47,355 nt of DNA. Origin: Bacteroidota bacterium. Its GTDB lineage: Bacteria > Bacteroidota > Ignavibacteria > Palsa-1295. The position numbers and the translations under genes are program-made. Each line of letters starts with the position of its first letter. The stretch's first letter is position 1. The notes under the pieces were generated by a model. The model saw only the letters and a list, made by a program, of their open reading frames with translations, was not told the DNA's origin and ran no database searches. Location: contig JAFDZW010000010.1 in NCBI GenBank assembly GCA_018266755.1, forward strand, positions 1-47,355, given 5' to 3'. This document shows, piece after piece, positions 3,601 to 19,099 of this stretch.

Positions 3601-5933
3601 TCAAACCGGGCGATGCGAAATTTCTCTACTTCGAGCCGGGTATCTCCATCCGGGCGTCGACGGGCGCGGCTACCTCCGGGATGGATTTCGCATATAACAA
3701 CGGTCGTCGCGTCGCCGAACGCATGAAAGGAACACGTACAATCGAGGCATATACACGGGGCGGAAAGCTCTTTGTCAGCAACGCCTCGCGCGGACTCGCG
3801 AGTGCGTCGATCCAGATCGAGTCCGACGGCGACAACACCGCCACCGGCGGAGAGACGCTCATAGACGGCACGACGACGTGCGCGCGTCCGTCCGTCTGTG
3901 TCGCCCGTAACGATACGGCTGTCGCACTGGTGTATTGGAAGAACAACCAACTCTTCGCAGCCTATCAGAGCCATCCCGACAGTGCATGGATTACGAGCTT
4001 TGCGAACTTCACGTATAACGCGATCGATACCTCGTCGGGATTATGGGAGGTGACACCAGTACTGACTCCTGCATCCGATAACCTCTGGATGGTAGCGGCC
4101 GGCTTCAACGGAGATGCGGCGGCAGGGAAACTGCCCGGTATCGTGGGAGCCCGCTTCAAACTCGATACCGTCGGGGGGATTACGCAGGTCGTCTGGGTGA
4201 ACGATCCGTTTACGTATCTCTTTCAGGACGGCGTGAAGGACACGACTGACTTCCTGAAATCGGAGTATCCGACCGTCTCCTCGCGTCCGATCCCAGACAG
4301 CCTGTGGCCCATTCGTCTGGCATGGCAGAAGGCCGGGAATATTCTCTACCGCAGAATTAAGTGGAGTATCGACTCGCTTCCCCCGGTACTCGACGGCATG
4401 ACGATTATTTCACGGGGATTGCCGAGCTACTGCACGAACCAGCATCCAAGTATCGCAACCATCGGGTATGAGAACGATATACCGACCGCATGGAAGAACG
4501 GGGTGCCCACTCCGATACCGTCGAATACCTCGATCAACGACTACGTGACGTGGGAAGCACAGATCAATGCACCCCCGCGATACACGTCGAATACGAAGTC
4601 GTATCCCGTACTCAAAACGCGGACGCAGCCGATCAATACGATAACAGGCTCGTGGGCACGCAGTTTCCTGGTGTTCAAACCCGATACGACCTCGACCGGA
4701 TACCGCTATCCGATTGTGACGGCCGAGAACCGGGCATTTGCACTCAGCGATGTGATGGTGGTCGGCAAACCGAGAGGGAGCATCATCTCCCCACGGAATA
4801 ATCTCGATTATGTTCGAGTGATGTGGCAAAACTTCACCTCGCACCGCCTGGATCTCGCATCGTGGTTATGGGGCTGGACACGCGGCGGTCTTCGTGAACG
4901 CGGACTCGCTCCCTCGCTTGCGCTCTCGACCGACAGTATTTCCCACCGAACGCATACATCGAGCGTCCCGCGCTCGATCGTGTTTGTCGGCGAACAATCG
5001 TCGGGCTCCGATAAGCAACTTCGCATTACCAATGGATGGGTACCATACATCGATGTGACGGCTCCGATGGTATCGCGGTTGCAGTTCTCGCTTGACAGTA
5101 CGGGAGTATCCTCGTGCACGTCGATCAAAAGCAGTATTGTCGGCGTCGTCCCGACGGTGACGGTGCAGAAGTCCGGCGGTCCGGCCCTTGCCCGTTCGTG
5201 GGCTCAGATCGATGTGACCGATCCGACGATTCTCGGCGAGAGTTGGCCGACGACAGCCCCGAATCCCATCGAGGTCTATTCCGATACCTTCTCCGTACAG
5301 AGCGGCGACTCAATCCTCGTACCGAGACGCTACGATCTCAACGACATCACGATCATTCGTAACTCGCTGGCAAGTGGGACGGATACGCTCTCGCTCGATC
5401 TGATACTGCGCAGTTTCCGTGACTCGTCGGTCATCGGGACGGTCGAGCATGCATGGATCACGAAGACGGCGATCAACTTCCCGGGGTACGGACTTGATAC
5501 GAGTTCAACACGGTATATGTACACAGGCCCAGCAGATAGTGCATTTATTACGATGGAGGTGAAGCGGTCGCAGACGGATAGTTTGGTACAGGCGTATATC
5601 GAATATGAAGACAACGACTCGTTGCCGGTGACGTCATATAAACGCCCGACGACTCAGCCATCGGTTACTGCGACCGAACCACTCGGGGTGTCTATCGTCC
5701 CGAACCCACTCTCGCTCACGGCGGCGGTGAACATCTCACTTCCGGCTGAGGCGGTAACGACGGTCGAACTCTATGACATCGGCGGGAAACGGATGCAGGT
5801 ACTGTACTCGGATGTTGCAAACGGTGAACTGCATCTGACGCTCGACGGAAGCACTCTTGCATGTGGGATGTATTTACTACGAGTACAAAGCGGTAGTACT
5901 GTTGTCACACGGAAGGTCGAACTGATGAAATAA
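696..5933 (+). CDS. Giant T9SS-exported protein, family A
   Basis: A 1745-residue protein. The start at 696 is chosen because AAGGAG lies 9 bases upstream and the N-terminus is a clear signal peptide (MKTINCALRLTVVLSVVLPL ... SSAQ); the frame is open further upstream but overlaps the previous gene. The C-terminus is a T9SS sorting domain (VSIVPNPLSL ... VELYDIGGKRM ... GMYLLRVQSG). The N-terminal half has stretches such as EAISGLTYGALANGI that recall glycosidase-type TIM barrels, but I see no assignable catalytic pair, so this is only a suggestion. The segment around AYNNGRRVAER and the later beta-rich region resemble the minus-strand protein at 10612-16221, so the two form a divergent family. 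An intrinsic terminator follows. Function unknown; probably a surface or secreted enzyme or adhesin. Confidence 0.85.
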   Translation: MKTINCALRLTVVLSVVLPLILVSGSSAQIVVPKGWENKHAIRFAMFLAGSEVWQSSDTAQLHRQLDSLGVNWDGEWSTLVANPGYSNSIVGSTTAGVDPIAPAPWDVARFKQLPYYALPYRIPDRFLNGLMWRYNDANGINPDARSFNNTYDSNDISPFSLYPAKHAYVIDTFHTYRYGGVDQRVNYGDEGRVILGMSDIRNANGQFIESSNRYFYPISGGYRRVLGPYHYPDTNTFFDYARGFSVTAVFNVANEIDTALANGRPTDSLPLVRLQVLFKHGVVPLSFPTGQSVLPMVPYRTAAQPSNPGWYALIDTVITKSIYNSLDDDWRVQDTLANGTAARSWKFKQLHLILKNLPSDLLSLADGVRLNNDNNFQKFGDGSGNAYSTYIHPDSLVDDPLDTALQRLPILEIRLLSTYRDSVRVRSLAFEDTTADKFYYRKMIGDTSHSREPNGAVGGFDDVLDSTMSQIAAAVSPRLWECFGFDTWQPFHAYSQPAFALIDFIGSKYHLYSHIHEQDMGNYILHYRRDRLSYDGRVPSMYENEATPWYNIGVCPGDYVYYGHTNTIAPALGWPNTADTTMGVLYTRRTSSDPYKSYRAFDTLNNGLDFLSSTLRLSTLIARAHPKGKQFAVEFGIPAWGELHIADGSVKTPALYWDSVAHHWVFLPKNVEWHQQIMFPEAISGLTYGALANGITAFNDAQGFDDARMRVNAPGLLCPESWSSTLGGKYTFRWSHDFNFGHARGSNNNDSGHVVFINDTNDVNGGFPAYYLGYSNTFRTVARIISRINSAYDTLARMTWLGAYTHFKTAPGHYTYSPSDSATEASAFLKVLSTSSVKLWQRGRGKTFVDSAAIDSANRTFVEVGLFFDSVTTARKNYAALLVNTRVYPSIRDDDDSLFFNKGFEASNKQNQRARSIYGDIDVRKVTLKIDTTMMPTSMRSHYYVVHDLWRKDTNWLVTPDSSFSVYIKPGDAKFLYFEPGISIRASTGAATSGMDFAYNNGRRVAERMKGTRTIEAYTRGGKLFVSNASRGLASASIQIESDGDNTATGGETLIDGTTTCARPSVCVARNDTAVALVYWKNNQLFAAYQSHPDSAWITSFANFTYNAIDTSSGLWEVTPVLTPASDNLWMVAAGFNGDAAAGKLPGIVGARFKLDTVGGITQVVWVNDPFTYLFQDGVKDTTDFLKSEYPTVSSRPIPDSLWPIRLAWQKAGNILYRRIKWSIDSLPPVLDGMTIISRGLPSYCTNQHPSIATIGYENDIPTAWKNGVPTPIPSNTSINDYVTWEAQINAPPRYTSNTKSYPVLKTRTQPINTITGSWARSFLVFKPDTTSTGYRYPIVTAENRAFALSDVMVVGKPRGSIISPRNNLDYVRVMWQNFTSHRLDLASWLWGWTRGGLRERGLAPSLALSTDSISHRTHTSSVPRSIVFVGEQSSGSDKQLRITNGWVPYIDVTAPMVSRLQFSLDSTGVSSCTSIKSSIVGVVPTVTVQKSGGPALARSWAQIDVTDPTILGESWPTTAPNPIEVYSDTFSVQSGDSILVPRRYDLNDITIIRNSLASGTDTLSLDLILRSFRDSSVIGTVEHAWITKTAINFPGYGLDTSSTRYMYTGPADSAFITMEVKRSQTDSLVQAYIEYEDNDSLPVTSYKRPTTQPSVTATEPLGVSIVPNPLSLTAAVNISLPAEAVTTVELYDIGGKRMQVLYSDVANGELHLTLDGSTLACGMYLLRVQSGSTVVTRKVELMK

Positions 5934-5967: not shown

Positions 5968-6000
5968 GGCCGGGGCGGTGTTGATGCGTCCCGGTCTTTT
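5968..6000 (+). terminator. Intrinsic terminator after the family A gene
   Basis: A GC-rich hairpin with arms GGCCGGGGCG and CGTCCCGGTC (two G-U pairs) and a 9-base loop is followed at once by TTTT. It sits 35 bases after the stop at 5933 and should end the transcript of the two upstream T9SS genes. Confidence 0.8.
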
Positions 6001-6390
6001 CTGTTGGAACCCCAGGTAAGCGGGTACGATTATACACTCACACTTTCTACCTATTGAGGAAGTTCTCACCACCTGCCTTTGCATGTTTCGGCAGGTCAAC
6101 AAAGCAACGCAAAAGCCAAGTCAGCAAGGGTGCTTTGACCCCGCTTTTGTACGCATATGCAGAAAAATCGAAAGCCATAGTCCTTAAAAAGTTCTTATTG
6201 TTGGCTATGTAATGCACCTCATCACTTGGGGTCGCGGTTGAGGTTGCTACATCAATAGTGCAAGCGAAGAACGAGTATCTCCATACCTTATTAAGGTCAC
6301 GGGTAAATACTTCACGATCATTGTGCATGTATGAGTACTCTGCCTATTTCCGACACGAGCAGAACTTACCATACGCTATAGACAGCAGAT
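6001..6390. other. Gap before the transposase fusion
   Basis: About 390 bases without a convincing intact gene. At 6016 there is GTAAGCGGG, which resembles the GTAAGCG-type ends of IS66 elements, but no matching inverted copy was found on the far side of the fusion gene. From about 6258 a different frame encodes a Cas4/RecB-like looking stretch (DSRFETGGFSVLIHYEPV), which may be the detached first half of the nuclease domain of the next gene. No promoter of the TAnnTTTG type was seen. Confidence 0.4.
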
Positions 6391-9300
6391 TTGAAACCGG
6401 AGGCTTTTCTGTGCTCATTCATTACGAACCAGTCAATTCGGCAGGTAGATTGTGTTCCCACATACTTCCAGAACATTTCTGTGGGACATCTGAGTATGTA
6501 CTATGAACTCCAAAACTATATCCCTATGCAACTGAAAGTACTACAAGCTATAGCTGACTGCCCCTACAAGGCATGGCAGTTATCACGTGGACCGTCACTA
6601 CAGGAATCTGTACCACCAACTACACTCGGCGGTTTATCTGTCAACGAAAGAATCTCTCTTTCAGCATGGGTGATTGAGCACTCCGAGGCCTCGTTCTCAC
6701 ATAAAGATACCAAACTCTTAACCAAGTATATAACAAAGGCTCAGGAGTTGATTCGTACAACGTATGCCATAGTATCAAACGGAAGCCCACCACCGTTCTA
6801 CAAGATCGCCCATTGTTCGGAGTGCCAGTATCGAAACAAGTGCCATACCCAACTGCAAGAGCGCGATTGCATCAGCCTCCTTCCCGGCATGACACCGACC
6901 GTACGAGAGAAGTACCACCGTAAAGGCATCACAACAATCACTCAACTTGCCCACCTGTTCCGTCCCCGCAGGCGAAGTCGTGCTCTGCATATCACTAATC
7001 GTTATCAGTGGGAGCTAAAGGCACTTGCTATTAGGGATAAGAAAACTTATGTCATCCAAGCGCCGGATATTCATTCGCAAGGAGTCTCGATCTTCATTGA
7101 CTTCGAAGGCCTTCCAACAGAGCAGTCATACTATCTGCTCGGCTGTCTGGTCGTTTCTACGTCTCAAGAACCCAAATATTATCACTGGTGGGCCGATACC
7201 CCATCACAAGAACAAGAGTGTTTCATTCAGCTCCTTAGTCTTCTGCATCAGTATCCCGATGCACCGATCTACCACTACGGAAGCTACGAGTCCAAAGCAC
7301 TGCGTTCGGTACTAAAAGCACTCGGAAAGTCATACCAACAGCAATGGGCTCTGCTCGAACCCCGATTGGTGAACCTGCTTGGCTATCTCAGAACTCACGT
7401 CTATCCGCCTACCTACGGAAACGGACTCAAAGAAGTGGCAGGGTTTCTCGGGTACACGTGGTCCGACTCGATAGCAGACGGCTATAGCAGTACCGAGTGG
7501 CGTAAGGCTTGGGAAGCGACAAACGAAGTATCGGTGCAAGAAGCCCTCATCCAGTATAACAGGGACGACTGTATGGCCTTGAGTCTCTTACACCACTGGT
7601 TCCGTCAACTGACGGAGGGAGCGATTACCGATAGCGTTCAGCAGGTGTCCGAGATGAAACGGCACTCTCCATTTCGGCTCCAGAGCAATCCGGAGTTTGG
7701 GGAAGATTACGACCGGATCAGTAAAGCCTCCTATTTCAACTATCAACGGGAAAAGATCTACTGGCGAGGACAGCCAAAGAAGAACACACCCAAAGAGAGC
7801 CCTTTAAGCCGAAGGCCTCAAAAGACGTCCAAAGGCCTGATGGTCTGGCAGCCAAAGCATGTCCATGAAATATCGGTAGCTCCGCCACTGAAACGATGCC
7901 CGAGCTGCGGCTCACGATCTCTGCGTCAAGGAGCCAAACTTTACAAGACCATTCAAACCGACCTTGCGTTTACCCGTACGGGAGTCCGTCAGCACGTCAT
8001 TGAACATCGTACACGGTACTCGGATTGCCTCGAGTGCGACGGACGAACCAATAACCGTAGCCTGAGAATGATGCACTACGGGGATAACCTCTTTGCTCTG
8101 GCAGTCCATTATTACGTGAACTACCGACTCAGTAACGCCCTGATCAGCCAACTCATCCAAGAGCAGTTCGGCATCTGGATCAGTCCGCAATACCTCGTGA
8201 TGAATAAATATACGTGGTGGAATAAGTCATGGAAACAGGAAGCGGAGTATATACAGCGGATCGTACTCAATAGTCCGTTCATCCATATCGACGAGACTCC
8301 GGTCAGACTTGCCCGTGAGAACGGATATGTTTGGGTCTGTGCTACTCCTGATTCGGTATTCTACCACTATTCGCCGACACGCTCTGCGGATGTGATTAAA
8401 GAGATACTCGGAGACTATAAAGGGATAGTGATCTCCGATTTCTTCCCGGCGTATGAAGCGATCAACGTTCAGAGACAAAAATGTCTGATTCATCTCATTA
8501 GAGATCTCAACGACGACCTGTTCAAGAGCCCGTTCGATACTGAGTTCGGTGAGATGGTATCGGAGTTTCGGACGCTCTTACGGCAGATCGTAGAGACAAT
8601 CGAGAAGTACGGACTGAAGCAATCGCGTCTGAAAAAGCATGTATCCGATACCGATCGGTTCTATCGGAAGCAGGTCGATTGTGCTCATTCGAGCGAATTA
8701 GCCTCTAAATATGCAAAACGCTTCCAGAAACACTGGGACGAGCTCTGGACCTTTCTTCATCACGATAATATCCCTTGGAATAACAACAACGCCGAGGCGG
8801 CGATCAAGGCATTTGCACAGCACCGGCGTGGGTTCAAAGGGGTCATGCATCCTCGGGGACTGCGTACCTACTTAGAGATGCTCTCCCTCTCGCAAACCTG
8901 TCGGTATCGGAATATCCCATTTCTAGGGGTATTACGCCGTAAACGAGGGATATGGGAGCATGCACGGGAAAAGAGTCTCCCGCCCTTTCTGCCATTCGCT
9001 CAGGCGAGGCTCTATGTTCATAGACTTCACTTCGAGCGTAAGCGAGAATGGATGCAGTGGGTTCAATCGGGAAAACGACCGCCGTTCATTCCCTATAACC
9101 CACACCTGACCTATCGAGGTGAAGGATGGAAGGGTTGGCAGGATTGGATTGGGTTTGAGTTCTTACCGTTCGCGAAGGCTCGGGTCTATGTTCGGTCACG
9201 AAAGATCAAGACCATGCGGGAGTATGACAAATGGTCGAAGAGCGGAAAACGTCCGAGAAATATCCCGGCAGACCCTGCCCAGATATACAAGAATACGGGT

Positions 9301-9750
9301 TGGGTCGATATTAACGATTGGTTAGGGACGAAGTCGAGAAAGAAGATGCGACTCTCGTATGAAGAAGCAAAGAAATATATGCGCTCAACGAACGTACGGA
9401 CGCAGCATCAGTTCTTCAAATGGCGGAAAACCGGTAAGCGACCGGATACCATTCCGTCCGATCCCGTTAAAACGTATCCTGAGTTTGAAGGCTGGGGAGC
9501 ATTCCTCGGTACAGGACGAATCGCAAACCAACGAAAGCGATACTGGGACTACGATCTGGCCAAGTCGTTCTTTCGGATTCTCAACGTTGACTCAAGAAAA
9601 CACTTTCATGCACTTTGTCTGGACGGGAGGATACCACCGGAAATCCCGAGAAATCCTGAGGCCTATTACCGGAAGAAAGGGACGTGGAAAGGGTATCGGG
9701 ATTTCTTGCACTTGAAAGGCGCGCTTAAGTCTATTCAAAAAGAATACTGA
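6391..9750 (+). CDS. TM0106-like nuclease / RNase H-like / IS66 transposase fusion with integrase-type repeats
   Basis: A single 1119-residue frame with four parts. Residues about 45-215 look like the C-terminal half of a Cas4/RecB-type nuclease, with a cysteine cluster (C142, C145, C151, C160) and an HhH-like segment (LLPGMTPTVREKYHRKGI), as in the TM0106 family. Residues about 230-410 are an RNase H-like exonuclease domain with D237 and E239 in FIDFEGLP and D392/D393 in YNRDDCMAL. Residues about 495-845 are an IS66-type transposase: zinc ribbon C503, C506, C546, C549, then a DDE triad D634 (HIDETPV), D683 (ISDFFPAY) and E802 (NNNAEAAIK). Residues about 866-1108 hold four repeats of about 60 residues (SGKRPxxIP core). 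The usual IS66 helper genes are absent. The start is uncertain: 6391, 6496 and 6526 are in-frame ATGs, and the nuclease part lacks a visible PD-(D/E)XK core. Either a mobile element gene or a domesticated transposase. Confidence 0.8.
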   Translation: MKPEAFLCSFITNQSIRQVDCVPTYFQNISVGHLSMYYELQNYIPMQLKVLQAIADCPYKAWQLSRGPSLQESVPPTTLGGLSVNERISLSAWVIEHSEASFSHKDTKLLTKYITKAQELIRTTYAIVSNGSPPPFYKIAHCSECQYRNKCHTQLQERDCISLLPGMTPTVREKYHRKGITTITQLAHLFRPRRRSRALHITNRYQWELKALAIRDKKTYVIQAPDIHSQGVSIFIDFEGLPTEQSYYLLGCLVVSTSQEPKYYHWWADTPSQEQECFIQLLSLLHQYPDAPIYHYGSYESKALRSVLKALGKSYQQQWALLEPRLVNLLGYLRTHVYPPTYGNGLKEVAGFLGYTWSDSIADGYSSTEWRKAWEATNEVSVQEALIQYNRDDCMALSLLHHWFRQLTEGAITDSVQQVSEMKRHSPFRLQSNPEFGEDYDRISKASYFNYQREKIYWRGQPKKNTPKESPLSRRPQKTSKGLMVWQPKHVHEISVAPPLKRCPSCGSRSLRQGAKLYKTIQTDLAFTRTGVRQHVIEHRTRYSDCLECDGRTNNRSLRMMHYGDNLFALAVHYYVNYRLSNALISQLIQEQFGIWISPQYLVMNKYTWWNKSWKQEAEYIQRIVLNSPFIHIDETPVRLARENGYVWVCATPDSVFYHYSPTRSADVIKEILGDYKGIVISDFFPAYEAINVQRQKCLIHLIRDLNDDLFKSPFDTEFGEMVSEFRTLLRQIVETIEKYGLKQSRLKKHVSDTDRFYRKQVDCAHSSELASKYAKRFQKHWDELWTFLHHDNIPWNNNNAEAAIKAFAQHRRGFKGVMHPRGLRTYLEMLSLSQTCRYRNIPFLGVLRRKRGIWEHAREKSLPPFLPFAQARLYVHRLHFERKREWMQWVQSGKRPPFIPYNPHLTYRGEGWKGWQDWIGFEFLPFAKARVYVRSRKIKTMREYDKWSKSGKRPRNIPADPAQIYKNTGWVDINDWLGTKSRKKMRLSYEEAKKYMRSTNVRTQHQFFKWRKTGKRPDTIPSDPVKTYPEFEGWGAFLGTGRIANQRKRYWDYDLAKSFFRILNVDSRKHFHALCLDGRIPPEIPRNPEAYYRKKGTWKGYRDFLHLKGALKSIQKEY

Positions 9751-9835
9751 AGGATTTGAAATGCAAAAGTCACCGTTAAGAATTATTGAGAGTAAATTCA
9801 CTATTTGAACTGCTGTTACATAGTTTACTAAAGGT

Positions 9836-10417
9836 ATGGAATATCTTGAATTTGAGGATAGGCCTCATCCGTATGATGATCAATATTACGAGTATTTTGA
9901 CCAATTTGAGCGAGGTGAACTAATCCAACTGATGGATCTTCTCAAAGAGCTGGATAAGTTAGACCCTACGTACATGCATCCTATTTTGTCGATTGCAGAT
10001 CTGTTATACGAGATAGGCAACGAAAAAGAAGGCGATGCTCACATTGCGGAGGCATACCGTCGTGTTGTTGAGATAGTTTGTGTGAATGGCAAGTGGCCAG
10101 ATAGATTAATATGGGGGTGGTTAGAGAATCGACACCTACTGCGTGCAATCGAGGCGTACGGTGATATGTTATGGAGACGGGGCACTCCAAACGAAGCACT
10201 GGCAGTATATCGACAGATGTTGCAACTTAATCCGTACGATAATCAAGGCGTTCGGTTCAAAATGCTGGCAATACGGATGAACTTCACGTTTCTGGAGCAC
10301 GAATCTCATAACGAATCGGATAACGATTCTGCTAATTTTTGGATGCGCCAGTTTGATACGTATGCGTCTGAATTCCCTAACGATTTTCAAGATTGGCTAG
10401 CAAAATATGGAGATTGA
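9836..10417 (+). CDS. TPR-like protein
   Basis: A 193-residue soluble, acidic protein with no signal peptide. The stretch from about residue 105 (HLLRAIEAYGDMLWRRGTPN followed by EALAVYRQMLQLNPYDNQG) matches a tetratricopeptide repeat pair ending in the common NPxDNQG turn, so a protein-interaction role is likely. An earlier helical pair (ELIQLMDLLKELDKLDP) may be another repeat. It follows the transposase fusion by 85 bases on the same strand, but base composition is AT-richer and there is no sign of a shared function. AAGG lies only one base before the ATG, so it is a poor ribosome binding site; the start is set by the first ATG of the frame. Partner unknown. Confidence 0.65.
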   Translation: MEYLEFEDRPHPYDDQYYEYFDQFERGELIQLMDLLKELDKLDPTYMHPILSIADLLYEIGNEKEGDAHIAEAYRRVVEIVCVNGKWPDRLIWGWLENRHLLRAIEAYGDMLWRRGTPNEALAVYRQMLQLNPYDNQGVRFKMLAIRMNFTFLEHESHNESDNDSANFWMRQFDTYASEFPNDFQDWLAKYGD

Positions 10418-10543
10418 GTAACGATGTTAATAGGCATTAATTGGAGTTAGCGAACAAGTATTTATGCCGTTATATCATGTATTGATCTTTGAGTTACTGA
10501 ATATTAAATGAGAATTAATTATCATTTGTCTATCCATGTATAC

Positions 10544-10576
10544 AAAAAGTGACCGAAGAAAAACAACTTCGGCCAC
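10544..10576 (-). terminator. Intrinsic terminator of the minus-strand A'-B' operon
   Basis: Read on the minus strand, GTGGCCGAAG and CTTCGGTCAC form a 10-bp stem (one G-U pair) with an 8-base T-rich loop, followed by TTTTT. It lies about 36 bases beyond the stop of the 1869-residue gene. Confidence 0.85.
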
Positions 10577-10611
10577 TCCTTCACTTTAAAATATCTATAA
10601 AATGGATATGA

Positions 10612-13600
10612 CTATTTTTTTACCTCCAATTTGATTGTTTTTACAAAATTGCCCGATTGAGCCCTTAGGTAATAGTTGCCACTCGCAAAGTAACTCGCAT
10701 CAAGTATAAACCTCAAGTTGGGATTATCGATGACATCGTTGAAGATGCCTTTAACTTCTCTGCCTAAGAGGTCATATATGCCAATAGTAAGGGGCATCCC
10801 CTTGGCGCCACTAACATCAACGGCTGAAAGCAACGTAAATGGATTTGGATACACACTGATCTCAAGAGGATTGGTAATGTATGAAACACTCGGTGTTGAA
10901 GGTTTCTTAAAACCGGTATCTGTTACAGGATATACATAGTTATCCTGGAATGTTCTATCGTGCTCCTGTATCTGGGACAAGTATAGAGTGCTGGATGTAT
11001 CCTTATTAGAAATAATCGTTAGATAGCCTTTGCCAGAAGTAGGAATACGAGATGGATTATCTACTGGATGTGTAATTGAGACATGTGCGAGTTTTGCAAT
11101 CGGGGGACAATCCACTGGTGGTGCAGGAACCGGAGGTGGGAATGGTACTTTAATAGAGGTGATCGTCGGAGTAGTCCCACCTTGTATAATGATTCCATCT
11201 AATGTGTCGACAACTTGATGTGAAACGGAATCCTTCAATACGAGCAACATCGAAAGAGTATCAATTTGAGAAGGGAAAGTCTCTGAAATCCACGCCGAAT
11301 CATCAATTGCCAGTTCTCGTTCAAACCGAATTGAATCACCTAGCTGGACTGTGAACATATTTGTACGTATTGAATCCTCTGTCCTAGGCCAATATTTTGC
11401 AGGAGGAGGGTATACTTGAAACATTCCGACATGGGTAATGTCTGTTGTGTTGTATTTCCATTTATGATTGGTATCCGGCGGATTGGTTGTTGGGCAAGTC
11501 GAACACCCTCCTCCATCACCAATCGAATATGTCAACCCTTTATTACATGAGGATTGGCTACTCGACACAGAAATTGTTTGAGTGAGAGATGAACGAATTG
11601 AAGTCTCATCTCCGACATTCCTAGCGTTAATTCTGACGGCAAATAAGCCATCATCTTCAGAATTACTTGAATATGTTCGATCAATTCCCCGGAAAGCGAA
11701 AGTGCGAGCATTCCCCCCGTCCACCTTGTCGAACTGCAAAGACTGATTTGGGTAAAGCCCCTTATCCCGAAGTTGGTGATGTTGCCAAAGTGAGTTGTCA
11801 CTCGGTGTTGATTCTGAAGAAATGCGTTCCATATGAATCTGTCGGGTGAACGTATCTTGGAATACAACAGCCTGATCATCGCTAGGATCAAGCGAAGAAG
11901 CACCGGTTGTCTTGACCCGAATTTGAGGCAATGGAAGATTATCCTTTTTTGGATAAAATGTTGTGAAGGACCCCCATGCAAACTGAACGGGGGGTAGTGC
12001 ATCCCTCGATCTGAGTGCCACTACTACATTATTCGTTGCATTGCCAAATTCAAGTTTAGAATTGCATCGACTTTCAACCATTTCCCACGTAACAATGGGT
12101 TCGCCCGGTGCCGGCGCAATAACATACTCTTGTTGGCCACCAACTATGATCGGTTGCCACTTCCTACTATCAACGACGGCGACATTCGGGTGATGGTGTT
12201 CACAATAAGGAGCGTCTTTTGTAACACGCTCCGGCTGAGAGTATTGTGAAAGGAAAGCATTATTTACTGCATTATAGTCAAACCGTTGATAATAAATTTG
12301 AGAATTTGGTTTTGAACCATTTGGGTTGAATTGTTCTTCCCAAACCAAATACAACCGCTCAGGGTCGTTAGGGAAGTCAGCCCAATCTCTTCTGCTCGCG
12401 ACACTCGGAAATAATGCACAGAGTGAATTAGGATCGGCATGTTGTGTATTTAGAGGGAAACTACTAATAGAATTGCCTCCCGAAGATGAGATTGTAACAA
12501 CCATTGGACGAATATCGCTTGTGGAGGGATCAGACCAAGCAAGGAAGAAACCATCTTTGGTCGGGACGACCGAAGGTGTCGGGAATCGATCCGGATGATT
12601 ACTATCATGGCAAGGATCGCCATTTGATGGTGTGAAAACGACCTTACTTCCTCGCCAGGTTACATCCACAGTAGAGGTGCCCGATGAGACTGGTCTGACC
12701 CCCCACTCAAAAAGCACCGCTTGCTGAGTGCCATTTTGTATACCATCACTGAATACAATCGCGACAGTATCATAGCATGTACCAGAAGTACATGTCGATT
12801 GATGCTTTACCGCTACAGATGGATTTCTTGCATCCGAGAAATTCCCAAATGAATTTGCATTTGCTTCTTCGGAATAGTTGTCTTCTGTAGATTGATGTGG
12901 ATTATTGGTGATGTTATACTGAATATTCCCTTTACGTTCCCAAACAATAATCCGTTGATTGTTCTTAAAATCCGCAATACGATGGCCATTGTTATATGCC
13001 ATCCCAAGAGGCGAACTCTTACCAACAGGAAAACTCGTTGCAGGAGATATACGTAATAGTGTCCCCTCTCCTGGCTCGAAATCTATCGAGTGTGATGGAT
13101 GGTTGGAGTTGTCAGAAAATTTCTTTACTTCTTCAACTCCTGTACGAAGATTCGTTACTGAATAATAAGTATACAACTGAGATGGATCAAGCACATTCCG
13201 ATATGGCTCGAATGTAAATCTTCTTGCATCTACAGCACCAAGCATATTTTGCCATAGGCTTGAGTTTGTGGCACTAGCAGACTTATCTAACATCACTACA
13301 GAACCGTCTGAAGCGTAATTGATAGGCCACATTCTCCTGTTGAGTACAAGTATGAAATGGGCTAAATCTTCAGTAGGGTCAGAGAATTGGGTTAATGTAT
13401 AATAACTCTTAGACTGTACATCTTCTGCTCCACTTTCTGGTAACAAGGATTCGCTTCCTGTAGCGAGGGTTCTATTTTGGTAGTCGTCAGGCTCAAATTT
13501 AAGGCTATGTATACTCGTAATTGGAAAATCTGTCGGCAATGATGTTACTTGAGAGTAATTGACAACCTCCTGCCAACGAAGTTCAGAAAGCCGTTTGCCG

Positions 13601-16221
13601 ACGGGAATGACATCCGAAACTGATTGCTTAGCTCCTATCCATCGTTCATGAAAGCCGTAGAAGGTTGGAATTGGAACTTTGAATTGTACGTGGGAATATG
13701 GGTAATAATTTGGCCAAGTGCCGTTAACTACCCGAGGGTCTGAGACGTCAAAAAAATAGGCTAGTTTTGCTCGGTCGGTGCTGCTTGTGTGATCCCCACA
13801 TCCACCCCAATTTTTGTCCCAAAAATCTCCGAGTGTTGTTGGAGCCCATCCATCTATGCATGGAAGTTTTGATGGAGTTGGGTTCACATCACGCTGCGGA
13901 TTGCCACTGACTTTGTTAATCACGTTTATATTATTGTTGTCTAAATAGTAGCCGAGAGTGTGCTGGGAGAGATCGAATGACACTGGAACCCATTGTTCAT
14001 CCCATACTCCGTCATAGTCTGTGTTCCCAGTGCAAGAGGATGGAAATGTTTTGTGAATCAAATAGTGCGTGAATGAACTCTGCGGAATAAAAGGGTTGTT
14101 ACAATCACCGGAGCCGTACCAAATTAGGCCCTTTTCAGTACTCGAACCCTGAATATTCCCGTCATAATCCGTATTAAATACATTATCACTTATTCCAATC
14201 TGTTCACCGCCATCACTTCCAACATTATTGAAAAACAACCCTGTTGCTCCCCACGCTAGGGCATCCCAAGTTTCTGCCCTTATCTCACTTTTCGACGGAC
14301 CCCGTGAAGAAACCAGCATATCACAACCACTACCCCAATACTGCAGGCCAAGGTGATCCGTCTTCCATATCCATGAGTAATCGATGTGGTGGTTCTGTTC
14401 CAAATAATCAGTAATATTTCCTGACTTAGCACCTTCGATTATTCGATCAAGTAGAGTTTTGCCCCCACCAATATCGGTAGAACGAATCGTCGACATTGGA
14501 TATGTTGGGCTTGTACTTCCATTGCAATCTTTCGAATCACCCGAATTCCTAAAATTTAGAATAGTTGAAAGTAACGTGTACCATTTAGTTGCTGGTGCTT
14601 TCTTGAACGCGGCATCTGCTGCTGTTCCAAAAAGTTCATCAAACTTACTCAAATATCCCTGCATGTTTGATGTATAATCCAAATAGCCTTGAAATCTATC
14701 CGTTCCGGAACCAACAACCCCCTGCTTGATCGGGAAGCCTAAATCTATAAAGTTAGATCCTGACTGGCGATACGCAAAAGGGATGGCGTCGGAAGCTACA
14801 AATGGAGGATCGTCACTCGATTGTCCCTTTTGAAACATTTCGAAATTTTCTTGCATAATTGTGGTGGGCGGTTTATCTGTTTGATCTTCATATATTGCTC
14901 TATACCACGGGTAATTATTATGAGTGATATTTGTGCTCAGAAAAGAGTAGTCAAATTCCCTTATTTGTTTTGCTACAATTTGATCGACATATGCAAGTGT
15001 TCTAAAACCCTCATAAGTCATTTCTCCTCCAAGAGCAATCCCCCGTGTATGATCCCATGCAGAACTAGACACGGATTTTACAGCAGTTTTGATAGCGGAA
15101 GCATCCTTTCTGATTTGATAATCCCACCCGCCTGTTAATATCTTATCAGCTACTTTTGATCTGATTCTAAATCCCCTTACATATATCCCAGGTGATTGAC
15201 TTGTAAGTATTGTAAGAACGAGGTGGTTTGCCTGCGTTATATCTATTTTCATCCTGGCTATTGCATAATTATATGGTTGAGATGCAATCCCAGCTTTGGG
15301 GGCAGGAAACTTTGTCAGATACGGACTTTCTTTGGGCGCATAGCTTCCGGAATTGATTTGATCAAGGTACTTTTGGTACGTAATGATTATCTGCCTGTCT
15401 GATGTCGTCGGTAGGCTCGCATCATAATTAACTGCAAAAAGCGGGTCATTCGGCCTGGTGCTAATTGCATTGCTAGACGGCTGTGAACCATCTAATCGGT
15501 AAATAAAATCAACATAGGCATATTTGGGCCCGTGATCAGCCACAAAATTTCCATTGTCGTCGGTTTCAATAATGTCGTGATCGTGAGTATACCGATAATC
15601 ATAGTCACCACCATAATAAAACAGGTCTTGCTGTGGCCCGTGGTATTGATCTGATTTTGAAAGATCTAGATCAAGCAATGTGCCACTTGTACTCCGATCG
15701 ATAAGCCACTCGCTCCCTACCGCAGACCCTTTTACGGTAGTCCAATACGAAAAATGTCCACTCTGCAAAAATTCATTGAGCCAATTTCTTTCAACATCAA
15801 ACTCATTGTCGTTTTCATATGAAGCTAAGAAATCGCGAATCTCAGCGCCTGGAATCCCGAACCTGTTGCCAATGTACTTATACTCAAATTCAGAATAGGT
15901 TGCCCCTAGGTAGATATTCATCCCCTTAGGAAAGTAAGTAGCATCCTGCGTTTGCCAATTAGTCCATCCTCCTGGTCGGTTTCCCGAATAGAAGAGATTG
16001 AATCCAGCTTCATTCATCTTTTGAAAAAGAATCGTTGGGTGATTGTCTGCGCTATAATCAACAGATCCCCAATTTAGAGTTGAAAGTTCGAATGGTCCGA
16101 TAGGAAATTCATCGGAAGATAGGGGCGGAGGGTCAACTTGTGGTTGCGCATATAATTGATCTGAAAACAACCAGAATAATATTGCAATACAAAGGACAGG
16201 TAGTGTTTGTGTTAGTCTCAT
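10612..16221 (-). CDS. Giant T9SS-exported protein, family A'
   Basis: A 1869-residue protein starting MRLTQTLPVLCIAILFWLF ... YAQ, a good signal peptide, and ending in a T9SS sorting domain (SVYPNPFTLLSAVDVSG ... YDLLGREVKG ... YLRAQSG). It resembles the plus-strand protein at 696-5933 in overall layout: an N-terminal part with a barrel-like motif (AETWDALAWGATGLFFNN), a middle MAYNNGHRIAD segment, beta-rich repeats with VWEE and HPNVAVV strands, and a similar tail. Its coding DNA is clearly AT-richer than that of the plus-strand relative. It lies 36 bases downstream of the family B' gene at 16258-18069 in the same direction, and the pair ends in one terminator, so they are probably an operon. 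No Shine-Dalgarno sequence is seen. Role unknown. Confidence 0.85.
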   Translation of the reverse strand: MRLTQTLPVLCIAILFWLFSDQLYAQPQVDPPPLSSDEFPIGPFELSTLNWGSVDYSADNHPTILFQKMNEAGFNLFYSGNRPGGWTNWQTQDATYFPKGMNIYLGATYSEFEYKYIGNRFGIPGAEIRDFLASYENDNEFDVERNWLNEFLQSGHFSYWTTVKGSAVGSEWLIDRSTSGTLLDLDLSKSDQYHGPQQDLFYYGGDYDYRYTHDHDIIETDDNGNFVADHGPKYAYVDFIYRLDGSQPSSNAISTRPNDPLFAVNYDASLPTTSDRQIIITYQKYLDQINSGSYAPKESPYLTKFPAPKAGIASQPYNYAIARMKIDITQANHLVLTILTSQSPGIYVRGFRIRSKVADKILTGGWDYQIRKDASAIKTAVKSVSSSAWDHTRGIALGGEMTYEGFRTLAYVDQIVAKQIREFDYSFLSTNITHNNYPWYRAIYEDQTDKPPTTIMQENFEMFQKGQSSDDPPFVASDAIPFAYRQSGSNFIDLGFPIKQGVVGSGTDRFQGYLDYTSNMQGYLSKFDELFGTAADAAFKKAPATKWYTLLSTILNFRNSGDSKDCNGSTSPTYPMSTIRSTDIGGGKTLLDRIIEGAKSGNITDYLEQNHHIDYSWIWKTDHLGLQYWGSGCDMLVSSRGPSKSEIRAETWDALAWGATGLFFNNVGSDGGEQIGISDNVFNTDYDGNIQGSSTEKGLIWYGSGDCNNPFIPQSSFTHYLIHKTFPSSCTGNTDYDGVWDEQWVPVSFDLSQHTLGYYLDNNNINVINKVSGNPQRDVNPTPSKLPCIDGWAPTTLGDFWDKNWGGCGDHTSSTDRAKLAYFFDVSDPRVVNGTWPNYYPYSHVQFKVPIPTFYGFHERWIGAKQSVSDVIPVGKRLSELRWQEVVNYSQVTSLPTDFPITSIHSLKFEPDDYQNRTLATGSESLLPESGAEDVQSKSYYTLTQFSDPTEDLAHFILVLNRRMWPINYASDGSVVMLDKSASATNSSLWQNMLGAVDARRFTFEPYRNVLDPSQLYTYYSVTNLRTGVEEVKKFSDNSNHPSHSIDFEPGEGTLLRISPATSFPVGKSSPLGMAYNNGHRIADFKNNQRIIVWERKGNIQYNITNNPHQSTEDNYSEEANANSFGNFSDARNPSVAVKHQSTCTSGTCYDTVAIVFSDGIQNGTQQAVLFEWGVRPVSSGTSTVDVTWRGSKVVFTPSNGDPCHDSNHPDRFPTPSVVPTKDGFFLAWSDPSTSDIRPMVVTISSSGGNSISSFPLNTQHADPNSLCALFPSVASRRDWADFPNDPERLYLVWEEQFNPNGSKPNSQIYYQRFDYNAVNNAFLSQYSQPERVTKDAPYCEHHHPNVAVVDSRKWQPIIVGGQQEYVIAPAPGEPIVTWEMVESRCNSKLEFGNATNNVVVALRSRDALPPVQFAWGSFTTFYPKKDNLPLPQIRVKTTGASSLDPSDDQAVVFQDTFTRQIHMERISSESTPSDNSLWQHHQLRDKGLYPNQSLQFDKVDGGNARTFAFRGIDRTYSSNSEDDGLFAVRINARNVGDETSIRSSLTQTISVSSSQSSCNKGLTYSIGDGGGCSTCPTTNPPDTNHKWKYNTTDITHVGMFQVYPPPAKYWPRTEDSIRTNMFTVQLGDSIRFERELAIDDSAWISETFPSQIDTLSMLLVLKDSVSHQVVDTLDGIIIQGGTTPTITSIKVPFPPPVPAPPVDCPPIAKLAHVSITHPVDNPSRIPTSGKGYLTIISNKDTSSTLYLSQIQEHDRTFQDNYVYPVTDTGFKKPSTPSVSYITNPLEISVYPNPFTLLSAVDVSGAKGMPLTIGIYDLLGREVKGIFNDVIDNPNLRFILDASYFASGNYYLRAQSGNFVKTIKLEVKK

Positions 16222-16257
16222 TGTAGTAGTTCTATGTGTTTGTGGAAGAAAGGAGAA

Positions 16258-18069
16258 TTACCAGTTAAAAATTCTTGATTGTGGAATGTTGTTACGAGTC
16301 AAGACGCAGACATAGGTACCTTTCGGCAGATTTAAAAATGGGATCTCAATAGAAGACATGTTTGATTCTTGACTATTGATTGACTGGCTATATATACATC
16401 TCCCCAATAAATCAAACACTCTGACGACGGACGAGGAGAGGATCGGTTTATCGACCTCAATTAAGAGTGCCGAACGAGACCTCAAAGGTACAACATTGAA
16501 ATTGTCATCCAGAATGGTTGTATTTAACGGCACGCCATATTTGGGGTTGGGTCGGGATGGAATTAAATGCGATCCGAAAATGACGCGTATAGAACCAATC
16601 TGTTCGCGAAGTGAACTCATGTCAGAATATGAAGGAAACCCCAAAAGCACATCGTCAAGGGTGTCATCATTTGCGCGGACGAATACCGGCGAGGCTTCAT
16701 CGTTAATGAAGTTCGGGTCATAAAAAAGGTCTGCCTTACTATCGCTGGAACTTCCAAGTACATATAAATAGTAATAGTGCTCAGAACTAGTTTTCATAGC
16801 GTGCACTAGCAAAGTCGGATTATCCGAACCATTGACATCTCCTCCTGCGTACAAATCATGCCCGTTGAATGAAGGTGAACCATCCCCATTTGCCAATTCA
16901 TCAGCGGATTCGAGAACTAAATCCATATGTTCTAATTTTAATCTTTGGTCGCCAAAGTCAGCGCCACCCTGCTTGATTGCAATTCGATAATAGCCAGTAT
17001 TGCTTTTGTATTGGAAAACTAAATCCTGTGAAATATCCTTAGAAAGTTTAGGAAGACAAGTTACAGCTAAAGCCCCATCCAGCCTTATTCTGGATAAGTT
17101 TTGACTGCTATAAGTGCCCAGTTCAGGATTTTCCCATCCAGCTAGAAGTGTGTCATGTATAATCGATTCAGCTAAATTCGAAAGTGAAAACTTGTATGTG
17201 TTCCTAAAGAAGAATAGATTAGCAGGCTTGTCAGCAATAATAATGTCTTTCATACCACTACCGCGCCAATCTCCAACTGCAGTTGTCCAACTTAAGTAAC
17301 TTTCGGAAGGTTTTTCAGCTAGGAAATAAACTGAATCCGGGAACAGTATTGCCCTGTCAATAATAGTAGTTTGACCTCCGCGATAAAACATAAGAAAAAC
17401 TGAATCAGGCTTATTACCCGGATAAGGTCCTATGTCAGCCCCAAGGACAATGTCATCTAGTCCATCACCATCAAGATCACAAATAATTGGGTTCTGGAGT
17501 GCGGTAAGATCATAACTTACTCCTGAAGTATGAAAACTAAGAGTGCAGTATCGTGCTGTGTCAACATTCCCAAATTCATCTGACAGGTAGACCTGTTTTG
17601 TATCGTTCCGAAAGAAGTCAACCACAGTTGTTGAATGAAAGTGACAAGGGATAAGCCTGTCATAATATGGAGGTTTGAGATACGTCTCTTTGGGTAAGTG
17701 TTCATACTGAACAGTAGGGACTAATGAATGTATATTTAATGGTGATGTATTCTTGATAGCAGAATAATTACTATTGAGTGGTAACATGCCAGTTGTGAAT
17801 AAATAAGGGAAGTTACTGGTCATGCCTAAATTAAGATTAACAATATGCAAATTTTCTCCCAATAATTGATTTTGCACGTCACCACAAACAGAGTCTATCT
17901 CTGAAGGATAAACGAGGGATGGGAAATAGCAGTTAGAATCATATACTGATTCACCAACTTGACAACTACAACGCCCAGGGAATATGCCTATACAGATAAT
18001 AGAGAAAATTGTCCCCAAAACCAAGGTAATGGGTAGGGCAATTTTTGTAACATGATGAGTCCCGCTCAT
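16258..18069 (-). CDS. FG-GAP-like T9SS-exported protein, family B'
   Basis: A 603-residue protein with an N-terminal hydrophobic export segment (ALPITLVLGTIFSIICIGIF). It contains a calcium-binding FG-GAP/VCBS-like motif (CDLDGDGLDDIVLGAD) and further beta-propeller-like strands (GDVNGSDNPTLLV), and a C-terminal sorting-like region (RVFDLLGRCIYSQSI ... GTYVCVLTRN). It is a paralogue of the protein at 19352-21136: both begin the mature part with xDxNCYxPS/T, have a GxxxIPxxxNPxYGV segment near the end, and are about 600 residues. Just upstream on the minus strand is TAACTTTC (18087-18080), one base off the TAnnTTTG promoter element. It is first in an operon with the A' gene. Ligand unknown. 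Confidence 0.8.
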   Translation of the reverse strand: MSGTHHVTKIALPITLVLGTIFSIICIGIFPGRCSCQVGESVYDSNCYFPSLVYPSEIDSVCGDVQNQLLGENLHIVNLNLGMTSNFPYLFTTGMLPLNSNYSAIKNTSPLNIHSLVPTVQYEHLPKETYLKPPYYDRLIPCHFHSTTVVDFFRNDTKQVYLSDEFGNVDTARYCTLSFHTSGVSYDLTALQNPIICDLDGDGLDDIVLGADIGPYPGNKPDSVFLMFYRGGQTTIIDRAILFPDSVYFLAEKPSESYLSWTTAVGDWRGSGMKDIIIADKPANLFFFRNTYKFSLSNLAESIIHDTLLAGWENPELGTYSSQNLSRIRLDGALAVTCLPKLSKDISQDLVFQYKSNTGYYRIAIKQGGADFGDQRLKLEHMDLVLESADELANGDGSPSFNGHDLYAGGDVNGSDNPTLLVHAMKTSSEHYYYLYVLGSSSDSKADLFYDPNFINDEASPVFVRANDDTLDDVLLGFPSYSDMSSLREQIGSIRVIFGSHLIPSRPNPKYGVPLNTTILDDNFNVVPLRSRSALLIEVDKPILSSSVVRVFDLLGRCIYSQSINSQESNMSSIEIPFLNLPKGTYVCVLTRNNIPQSRIFNW

Positions 18070-18214
18070 AATATCTTAGGAAAGTTAGGACGCCTATAAT
18101 AACGAAAACAGATTGCCTATAATGCCCTCTCAAGAACCAATCGATGACTTAACAAAGGCACTGTATATAGCTGATCATAGTGAATTCCAATCATCAATAG
18201 ATTTCTCTAAGAGA

Positions 18215-18267
18215 CACCTGTTCTTGAAAAAAGTTGCATTTTCTTATAGAACAGGTGGTCACTTTTT
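18215..18267 (+). terminator. Terminator-like hairpin without an obvious gene
   Basis: CACCTGTTCT (18215-18224) pairs perfectly with AGAACAGGTG (18248-18257) across a 23-base loop, and TTTTTT follows within a few bases. The large loop makes it a weak candidate. No intact plus-strand gene ends here; it could belong to a lost gene or small RNA. Confidence 0.4.
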
Positions 18268-18462
18268 TATCTCCACAAGTTATTCTACAGAGAACGATTC
18301 GAATGCATGAAAGTTACTGCCATTCTAAAGGGACATCTATGCATACACTTGATGACCACAATGACGTGTGTAGACAACAGCCAAAGTCATGTGCTTCCTC
18401 ATCTTTCACATCACAAACTCCGGCTACTTGATGTGTATTTTTCGTGCTGCAACCGTGATACT

Positions 18463-18780
18463 TCAAGTTTTGTTTGTAGTCATTCGCCCTTGAGCTTTTG
18501 CAATGAGACTAGGTGTTCTTCTCTTAACTGACTCAAGGTATTCCCATATTATATGGTGAATGCCGAGGTCGTCTTGAAGCGATTGGAACCAATGTCTCAA
18601 TGCACTTAAACTGAGATAGTCAAGACAACGAATTCGGTCAGAGTCCTCACCCCAAAAGCAGCACAGATATTCCGATTCAATTTGTGGCTAACACTGCCAT
18701 TACAGTAGGGGTATTTGACAGCGAACTCAATCAACTTAGGTTCAATCACAATCCTCGAATACTCAACCATCTACCACTTT
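18463..18780 (-). pseudogene. Possible gene remnant, unidentified
   Basis: On the minus strand, 18463-18687 is open for 75 codons and reads as plausible protein (RIRCLDYLSLSALRHWFQSL, then LGIHHIIWEYLESVKRR) ending at a stop. Immediately upstream, another frame reads RIVIEPKLIEFAVKYPYC with no start that joins the two, so a frameshifted or eroded coding region is likely. I do not recognise the family. Confidence 0.3.
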
Positions 18781-19099
18781 TTCGTATTCCGAGTGAAAAA
18801 TCGAGGCAATTCATTGAGCGGTAGGTTGAGGACCTACTTCGAGAGATTTTCTTCTTGACCATGTAGGTCTTTCTCAATTAAAACTATTTCTAAGCACATA
18901 GACAACCATGCCGTTTGGCAAGCTATTAACTGTTATTAAGTTATAGGTTGAATGATATTGTAATTTCATTAAACTCAGTAAATTACTGGGCGCAACTCTT
19001 GATATTTATTCATAATCAATCACAATGACTTAAGCCTTTTACACTTTGAATCGCGCAAAATAAAGGACTTAGTCGCGCACTTTTACACAAATAAGAGAG

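Follow-up and report, generated by a model that had tools for sequence, protein, structure and literature searches.

The window analysed here, a stretch of 47,355 nucleotides from a Bacteroidota bacterium (contig JAFDZW010000010.1), contains an open reading frame on the forward strand (6391-9750) that runs without interruption for 1119 codons from a TTG codon. The relative L002 begins with MQPNLQTLQATIHCPYKSW, and because this start aligns with the window ATG at position 6526, the latter is probably the true start. The probable coding sequence (6526-9750, +) then encodes a fusion protein of 1074 amino acids. Residues are numbered here from the Met at 6526, i.e. the numbers of the original prediction minus 45.

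It had been predicted that a nuclease and an IS66 transposase are joined in a single chain with both active sites kept, and this is borne out by curated models as well as by 54 fusions from other genomes. The N-terminal module is matched by TIGR03491 (TM0106 nuclease) with 197.3 bits (cut-off: 97.45; residues 91-403 in the numbering of the called frame), the match covering only profile positions 147-461 of 462. The C-terminal module is matched by NF033517 (IS66) with 186.6 bits (cut-off: 180; residues 487-849 in the same numbering). PF13482 (89.5 bits, cut-off 22) and PF03050 (115.1 bits, cut-off 23.1) are likewise well above their thresholds. Of the four profiles that had been named for domain searches, only PF14882 finds no match, on the tail of the window protein. 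The fusion is the sole TM0106 match and the sole IS66 match of its own genome, where it is present in one copy.

Residues 1-120 (6526-6885, +) form a Cas4/TM0106-type Fe-S frame. Four cysteines (C12, C97, C100 and C106) are 98-100% conserved in the 54 relatives and correspond to the Fe-S ligands of Cas4-like nucleases. Together with the DEDD-type exonuclease, these four cysteines are features of the TM0106 family, with Fe-S and metal binding predicted. Three of the ligands had been recognized from the start (C97, C100 and C106, then numbered C142, C145 and C151). The fourth candidate, C115 (then C160), lies outside the conserved columns and has to be replaced by C12 (C57 in the older numbering). 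The idea of an active Cas4-type nuclease is not supported: the PD-(D/E)xK core of the TM0106 family is wholly deleted in the window clade, and the (D/E)xK residues are absent from the fusions outside this clade, including the Calothrix relative. Because of these losses, the Fe-S cysteine frame is all that is left of Cas4. The N-terminal part of the longer Calothrix relative still displays a Cas4 fold (Foldseek 8d3l, E 3.9e-6; also Dna2).

The frame is followed by a predicted 3'-5' exonuclease of the DEDDy or DNA polymerase B proofreading type (residues 185-374; 7078-7647, +), with D192, E194, E255 and Y344xxxD348 as its motifs. The region is covered by PF13482 and superimposes on the proofreading exonuclease of a family B DNA polymerase with a Z-score of 15.5 (168 residues aligned, 2.8 A). 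D192, E194, E255 and D348 are found in 100% of the 54 relatives. D192 and E194 (then D237 and E239) had been proposed correctly. From the pair D392/D393, only D393 (D348) is the catalytic one, since the exonuclease motif reads Y344-x3-D348, and E255 has to be added to the catalytic set. The Glu in the second exonuclease motif is also present in the stand-alone TM0106 family.

The two modules are connected by a linker of low predicted confidence (residues 379-439; 7660-7842, +; pLDDT under 50). The region in which a frameshift or an assembly join had been suspected (7640-7890) corresponds to this low-confidence linker of the structure model. Relatives from isolates (Pedobacter, Flavobacterium) and from complete plasmids (Calothrix, Acaryochloris) are continuous across it, and therefore such a join is excluded. 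That two genes were merged by an assembly or frameshift artefact is hardly credible in general, as no point in its favour was found and the same architecture recurs in isolates, in complete plasmids and in many independent assemblies.

The IS66 part starts with a zinc ribbon (C458, C461, C501 and C504; 7867-8040, +), located inside the NF033517 match. C458, C501 and C504 are invariant in the 54 relatives, and C461 is invariant in 4. The IS66 DDE transposase domain follows (residues 520-805; 8083-8940, +), as supported by PF03050 and NF033517. The intact catalytic triad that had been read as D634, D683 and E802 is confirmed as D589, D638 and E757, with conservations of 100%, 100% and 94% in the 54 relatives. 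The best Foldseek match of this half is the ISCth4 transposase (IS256 family; 6xgx/6xg8) with an E-value of 4.5e-7, the structure of which was solved in a strand-transfer complex. ISCth4 shares 14% identity with the DDE half, however, and does not contain an exonuclease. The C-terminal tail (8983-9729, +) is made up of four repeats of the INT_rpt-like type, each about 50-60 residues long. These repeats occur in 1-4 copies in the Bacteroidota clade of the window and are absent elsewhere. The tail of the relative L011 scores 20.9 bits against PF14882 (INT_rpt), which is under the cut-off of 26.5. The repeats are likely to bind DNA.

Scanning genomes with a small alignment yielded 70 loci, the majority of which span both modules. 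When stop-to-stop frames of 770 residues or more are taken as near-full-length, the architecture that was to be looked for in other genomes is found in 54 fusions. The bacterial hosts are Bacteroidota, Cyanobacteria, Acidobacteria, Planctomycetes, Ignavibacteria and Deltaproteobacteria (Myxococcota, Thermodesulfobacteria), and the archaeal hosts are Methanoperedens/ANME-1 and Thermoplasmatota. Isolates or complete plasmids are the source of several fusions. Nearly all strong TM0106 matches of 25 genomes fall within these long frames. The annotated records examined name the protein by one half only, either as 'transposase IS66' or as 'TM0106 nuclease'. The gene is rare: it was detected at the DNA level in 9 of 391 genomes of one cyanobacterial sample, and in 2 of 61 for the window and its relatives. 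A search of viral contigs returned no relatives, and in phage records only the IS66 half was matched.

In the trees of both modules the fusions are placed on one side of a branch and the stand-alone proteins on the other (SH-aLRT 100), with a modest stand-alone sampling of six TM0106 and thirteen IS66 sequences. This grouping fits a single event, and the fusion was apparently made once. For 11 close pairs the dN/dS ratio amounts to 0.17-0.35 in the N-terminal half and 0.08-0.20 in the C-terminal half, while a twelfth pair is saturated. Judged by these ratios, both halves are under purifying selection. In two close pairs the dS values of the halves are unequal, which suggests recombination between the modules.

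No operon partner emerges from the gene neighbourhoods: no partner is conserved across loci, and no neighbour family occurs at more than 9 loci, a number reached by the tyrosine recombinases. Defence-type neighbours are present at some loci, namely Gabija GajB, the TOTE primase-helicase, AbiEi, a Wadjet JetD-like protein and YhcG. The TOTE gene adjoins the fusion at two loci, L043 and L056, the latter holding a fusion fragment. At L043 a 69-bp imperfect direct repeat (1537-1605 and 4341-4409) lies ahead of the fusion gene and of the adjacent TOTE gene, as if the two were regulated together. It was considered as a target duplication, but since it precedes two neighbouring genes, a shared upstream element is more likely. 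The curated defence systems of PADLOC gave only weak Cas4 tail matches (window protein: best E 0.0038), so the protein matches none of these anti-phage defence proteins or systems. In Acaryochloris the fusion gene belongs to the variable cargo of a conjugative plasmid. In the window, the region 6000-19000, which encodes the fusion protein as well as large proteins of the T9SS type, has a lower GC content (about 0.38-0.47 from 10 kb) and lies between GC-richer sequence.

In most close pairs, homology ends at the gene edges or no more than ~200 bp from them, and the flanks are unrelated. Three loci narrow one left boundary down to about seven bases immediately ahead of the ATG. An Aulosira plasmid carries, beside a tyrosine recombinase, a remnant (L105:4960-5236) of an internally deleted fusion gene with both ends retained, namely 42 bp surrounding the start codon and the final 236 bp. 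The gene moves between lineages, and the mobile unit would be the gene itself, bounded at or close to the edges of its coding sequence. Two candidate empty sites were rejected. In Calothrix NIES-4101 the upstream gene is present and the fusion is lacking, but the right side does not match, which leaves a single visible edge. The left-hand window gene has a paralogous locus (G000:C1), but homology to it breaks off at 5999 and there is no empty site.

The marks of an active IS66 element were also sought. Terminal inverted repeats and target duplications, including the 8-bp duplication of the IS66 family, show no clear excess over swapped controls within 700 bp of the gene at ~50 loci. A 25-bp inverted pair at L068 is presumably a dispersed intergenic repeat, and integron attC ends were looked for by eye and dropped. 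No near-identical copies were seen within any of 50 genomes, in assemblies that can collapse identical repeats, and the co-resident pairs compared share no more than ~72% identity over long stretches. Some hosts contain several diverged and broken copies. One contig (L065, G106:C133) holds two divergent copies that point the same way and are separated by about 14 kb. In Calothrix PCC 7103 the gene is split between the two ends of a single contig (L063 and L112), and its parts overlap by 6 bp; were the contig circular, this would be consistent with another insertion.

Compared with TnpC of the IS66 family, the fusion resembles the ISBst12 group in particular, with which it shares the DDE domain, the zinc ribbon and the lack of tnpA and tnpB. 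The absence of TnpB, as originally noted, is confirmed: TnpB (PF05717) is missing from 23 of 27 fusion genomes (its own and 22 others). It is not unusual, however, and carries little weight as an argument, because the ISBst12 group consists of single-gene IS66 elements that need neither helper gene (PMC12898284). In contrast to these elements, the fusion is about twice as long, contains the exonuclease and Fe-S module at its N-terminus, displays no detectable inverted repeats or 8-bp duplications and has a low copy number. With TM0106/COG2251 (TIGR03491, PF13482) it shares the Fe-S Cas4-like frame followed by the 3'-5' exonuclease domain, whereas the Cas4-like core is deleted or degenerate and a C-terminal transposase has been added. 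COG2251 was described as a predicted 3'-5' exonuclease that occurs together with DUF83 or AAA domains, with IS66 placed in another clade (PMC3985635). In the part of that work covered here, the two are listed apart and no IS66 fusion of COG2251 is mentioned. The main text of a Cas4 survey (PMC5704561) does not contain COG2251, TM0106 or IS66. No description of IS66 joined with TM0106 was found in the open-access literature searched, within which the fusion enzyme is thus undescribed.

The reading proposed here, to which we give about an even chance, is that of an IS66-derived DDE recombinase that acquired a TM0106-type module once and spread as one horizontally moving gene, encoding an enzyme with two active sites that works on DNA ends. 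The Fe-S Cas4-like frame, having lost its own nuclease, would grip or gauge a DNA end. Subsequently, the polymerase B-type exonuclease would trim the 3' strand, and the DDE site would then cut the trimmed 3' end or join it to another DNA. During this process, the zinc ribbon may bind DNA, as may the C-terminal repeats of the window clade. End trimming would hence be coupled to strand transfer. An IS66-derived end-processing enzyme is supported by the curated model matches and fold matches of both modules, the conserved active-site residues, the fused architecture, the purifying selection, the grouping apart from stand-alone proteins and the spread across phyla. The loss of homology at or near the gene edges and the Aulosira remnant count for mobility. 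The missing repeats and duplications, the lack of near-identical copies and the rarity count against this reading, and the cargo position on the conjugative plasmid is equally well explained by passive carriage.

The same observations can be read as domestication, which seems plausible without being the probable outcome. In this case, the transposase would no longer move DNA and, together with the exonuclease, would act as a nuclease directed at foreign or damaged DNA, spreading like defence genes on plasmids and islands. The low dN/dS and the defence-type neighbours, with TOTE adjacent at two loci, agree with this, as do the absent repeats, duplications and recent copies and the variable plasmid stretch. 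However, all DDE residues are kept, no partner is conserved across loci, and divergent and broken copies within one genome are transposase-like too. On the original choice between a mobile element and a domesticated protein, the observations are divided: divergent copies without conserved ends argue against a classical mobile element, while mostly unrelated neighbours argue against domestication in a fixed context. An ordinary ISBst12-type insertion sequence with an extra N-terminal domain is decidedly improbable. The IS66 score above the cut-off and the single-gene organization without TnpB are in line with it, but the known active member of that group measures about 450 residues and has 14-bp repeats and an 8-bp duplication (PMC12898284), neither of which was detected at the fusion loci, where fresh copies were not seen either.

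A bolder version of the two-active-site reading, which we regard as unlikely, is a single-chain capture-and-integrate machine, in which the Fe-S frame would gauge, the exonuclease trim and the DDE integrase insert. It would be an independent one-protein counterpart of Cas4, a DnaQ-type exonuclease and Cas1 in CRISPR adaptation, or else a transposon with trimmed ends in place of inverted repeats. By analogy alone, both systems combine a Cas4-like frame, a DnaQ/PolB-type exonuclease and an integrating enzyme on DNA ends, whereas the fusion uses a DDE transposase in place of Cas1, is a single chain and has no array. Across bacteria and archaea, this widespread family keeps both active sites in one chain that would unite the trimming of ends with strand transfer. 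An active member would reveal how transposases join up with exonucleases that process ends, a step on which CRISPR adaptation and DNA repair both centre, and could provide a new integrating enzyme without inverted-repeat ends.
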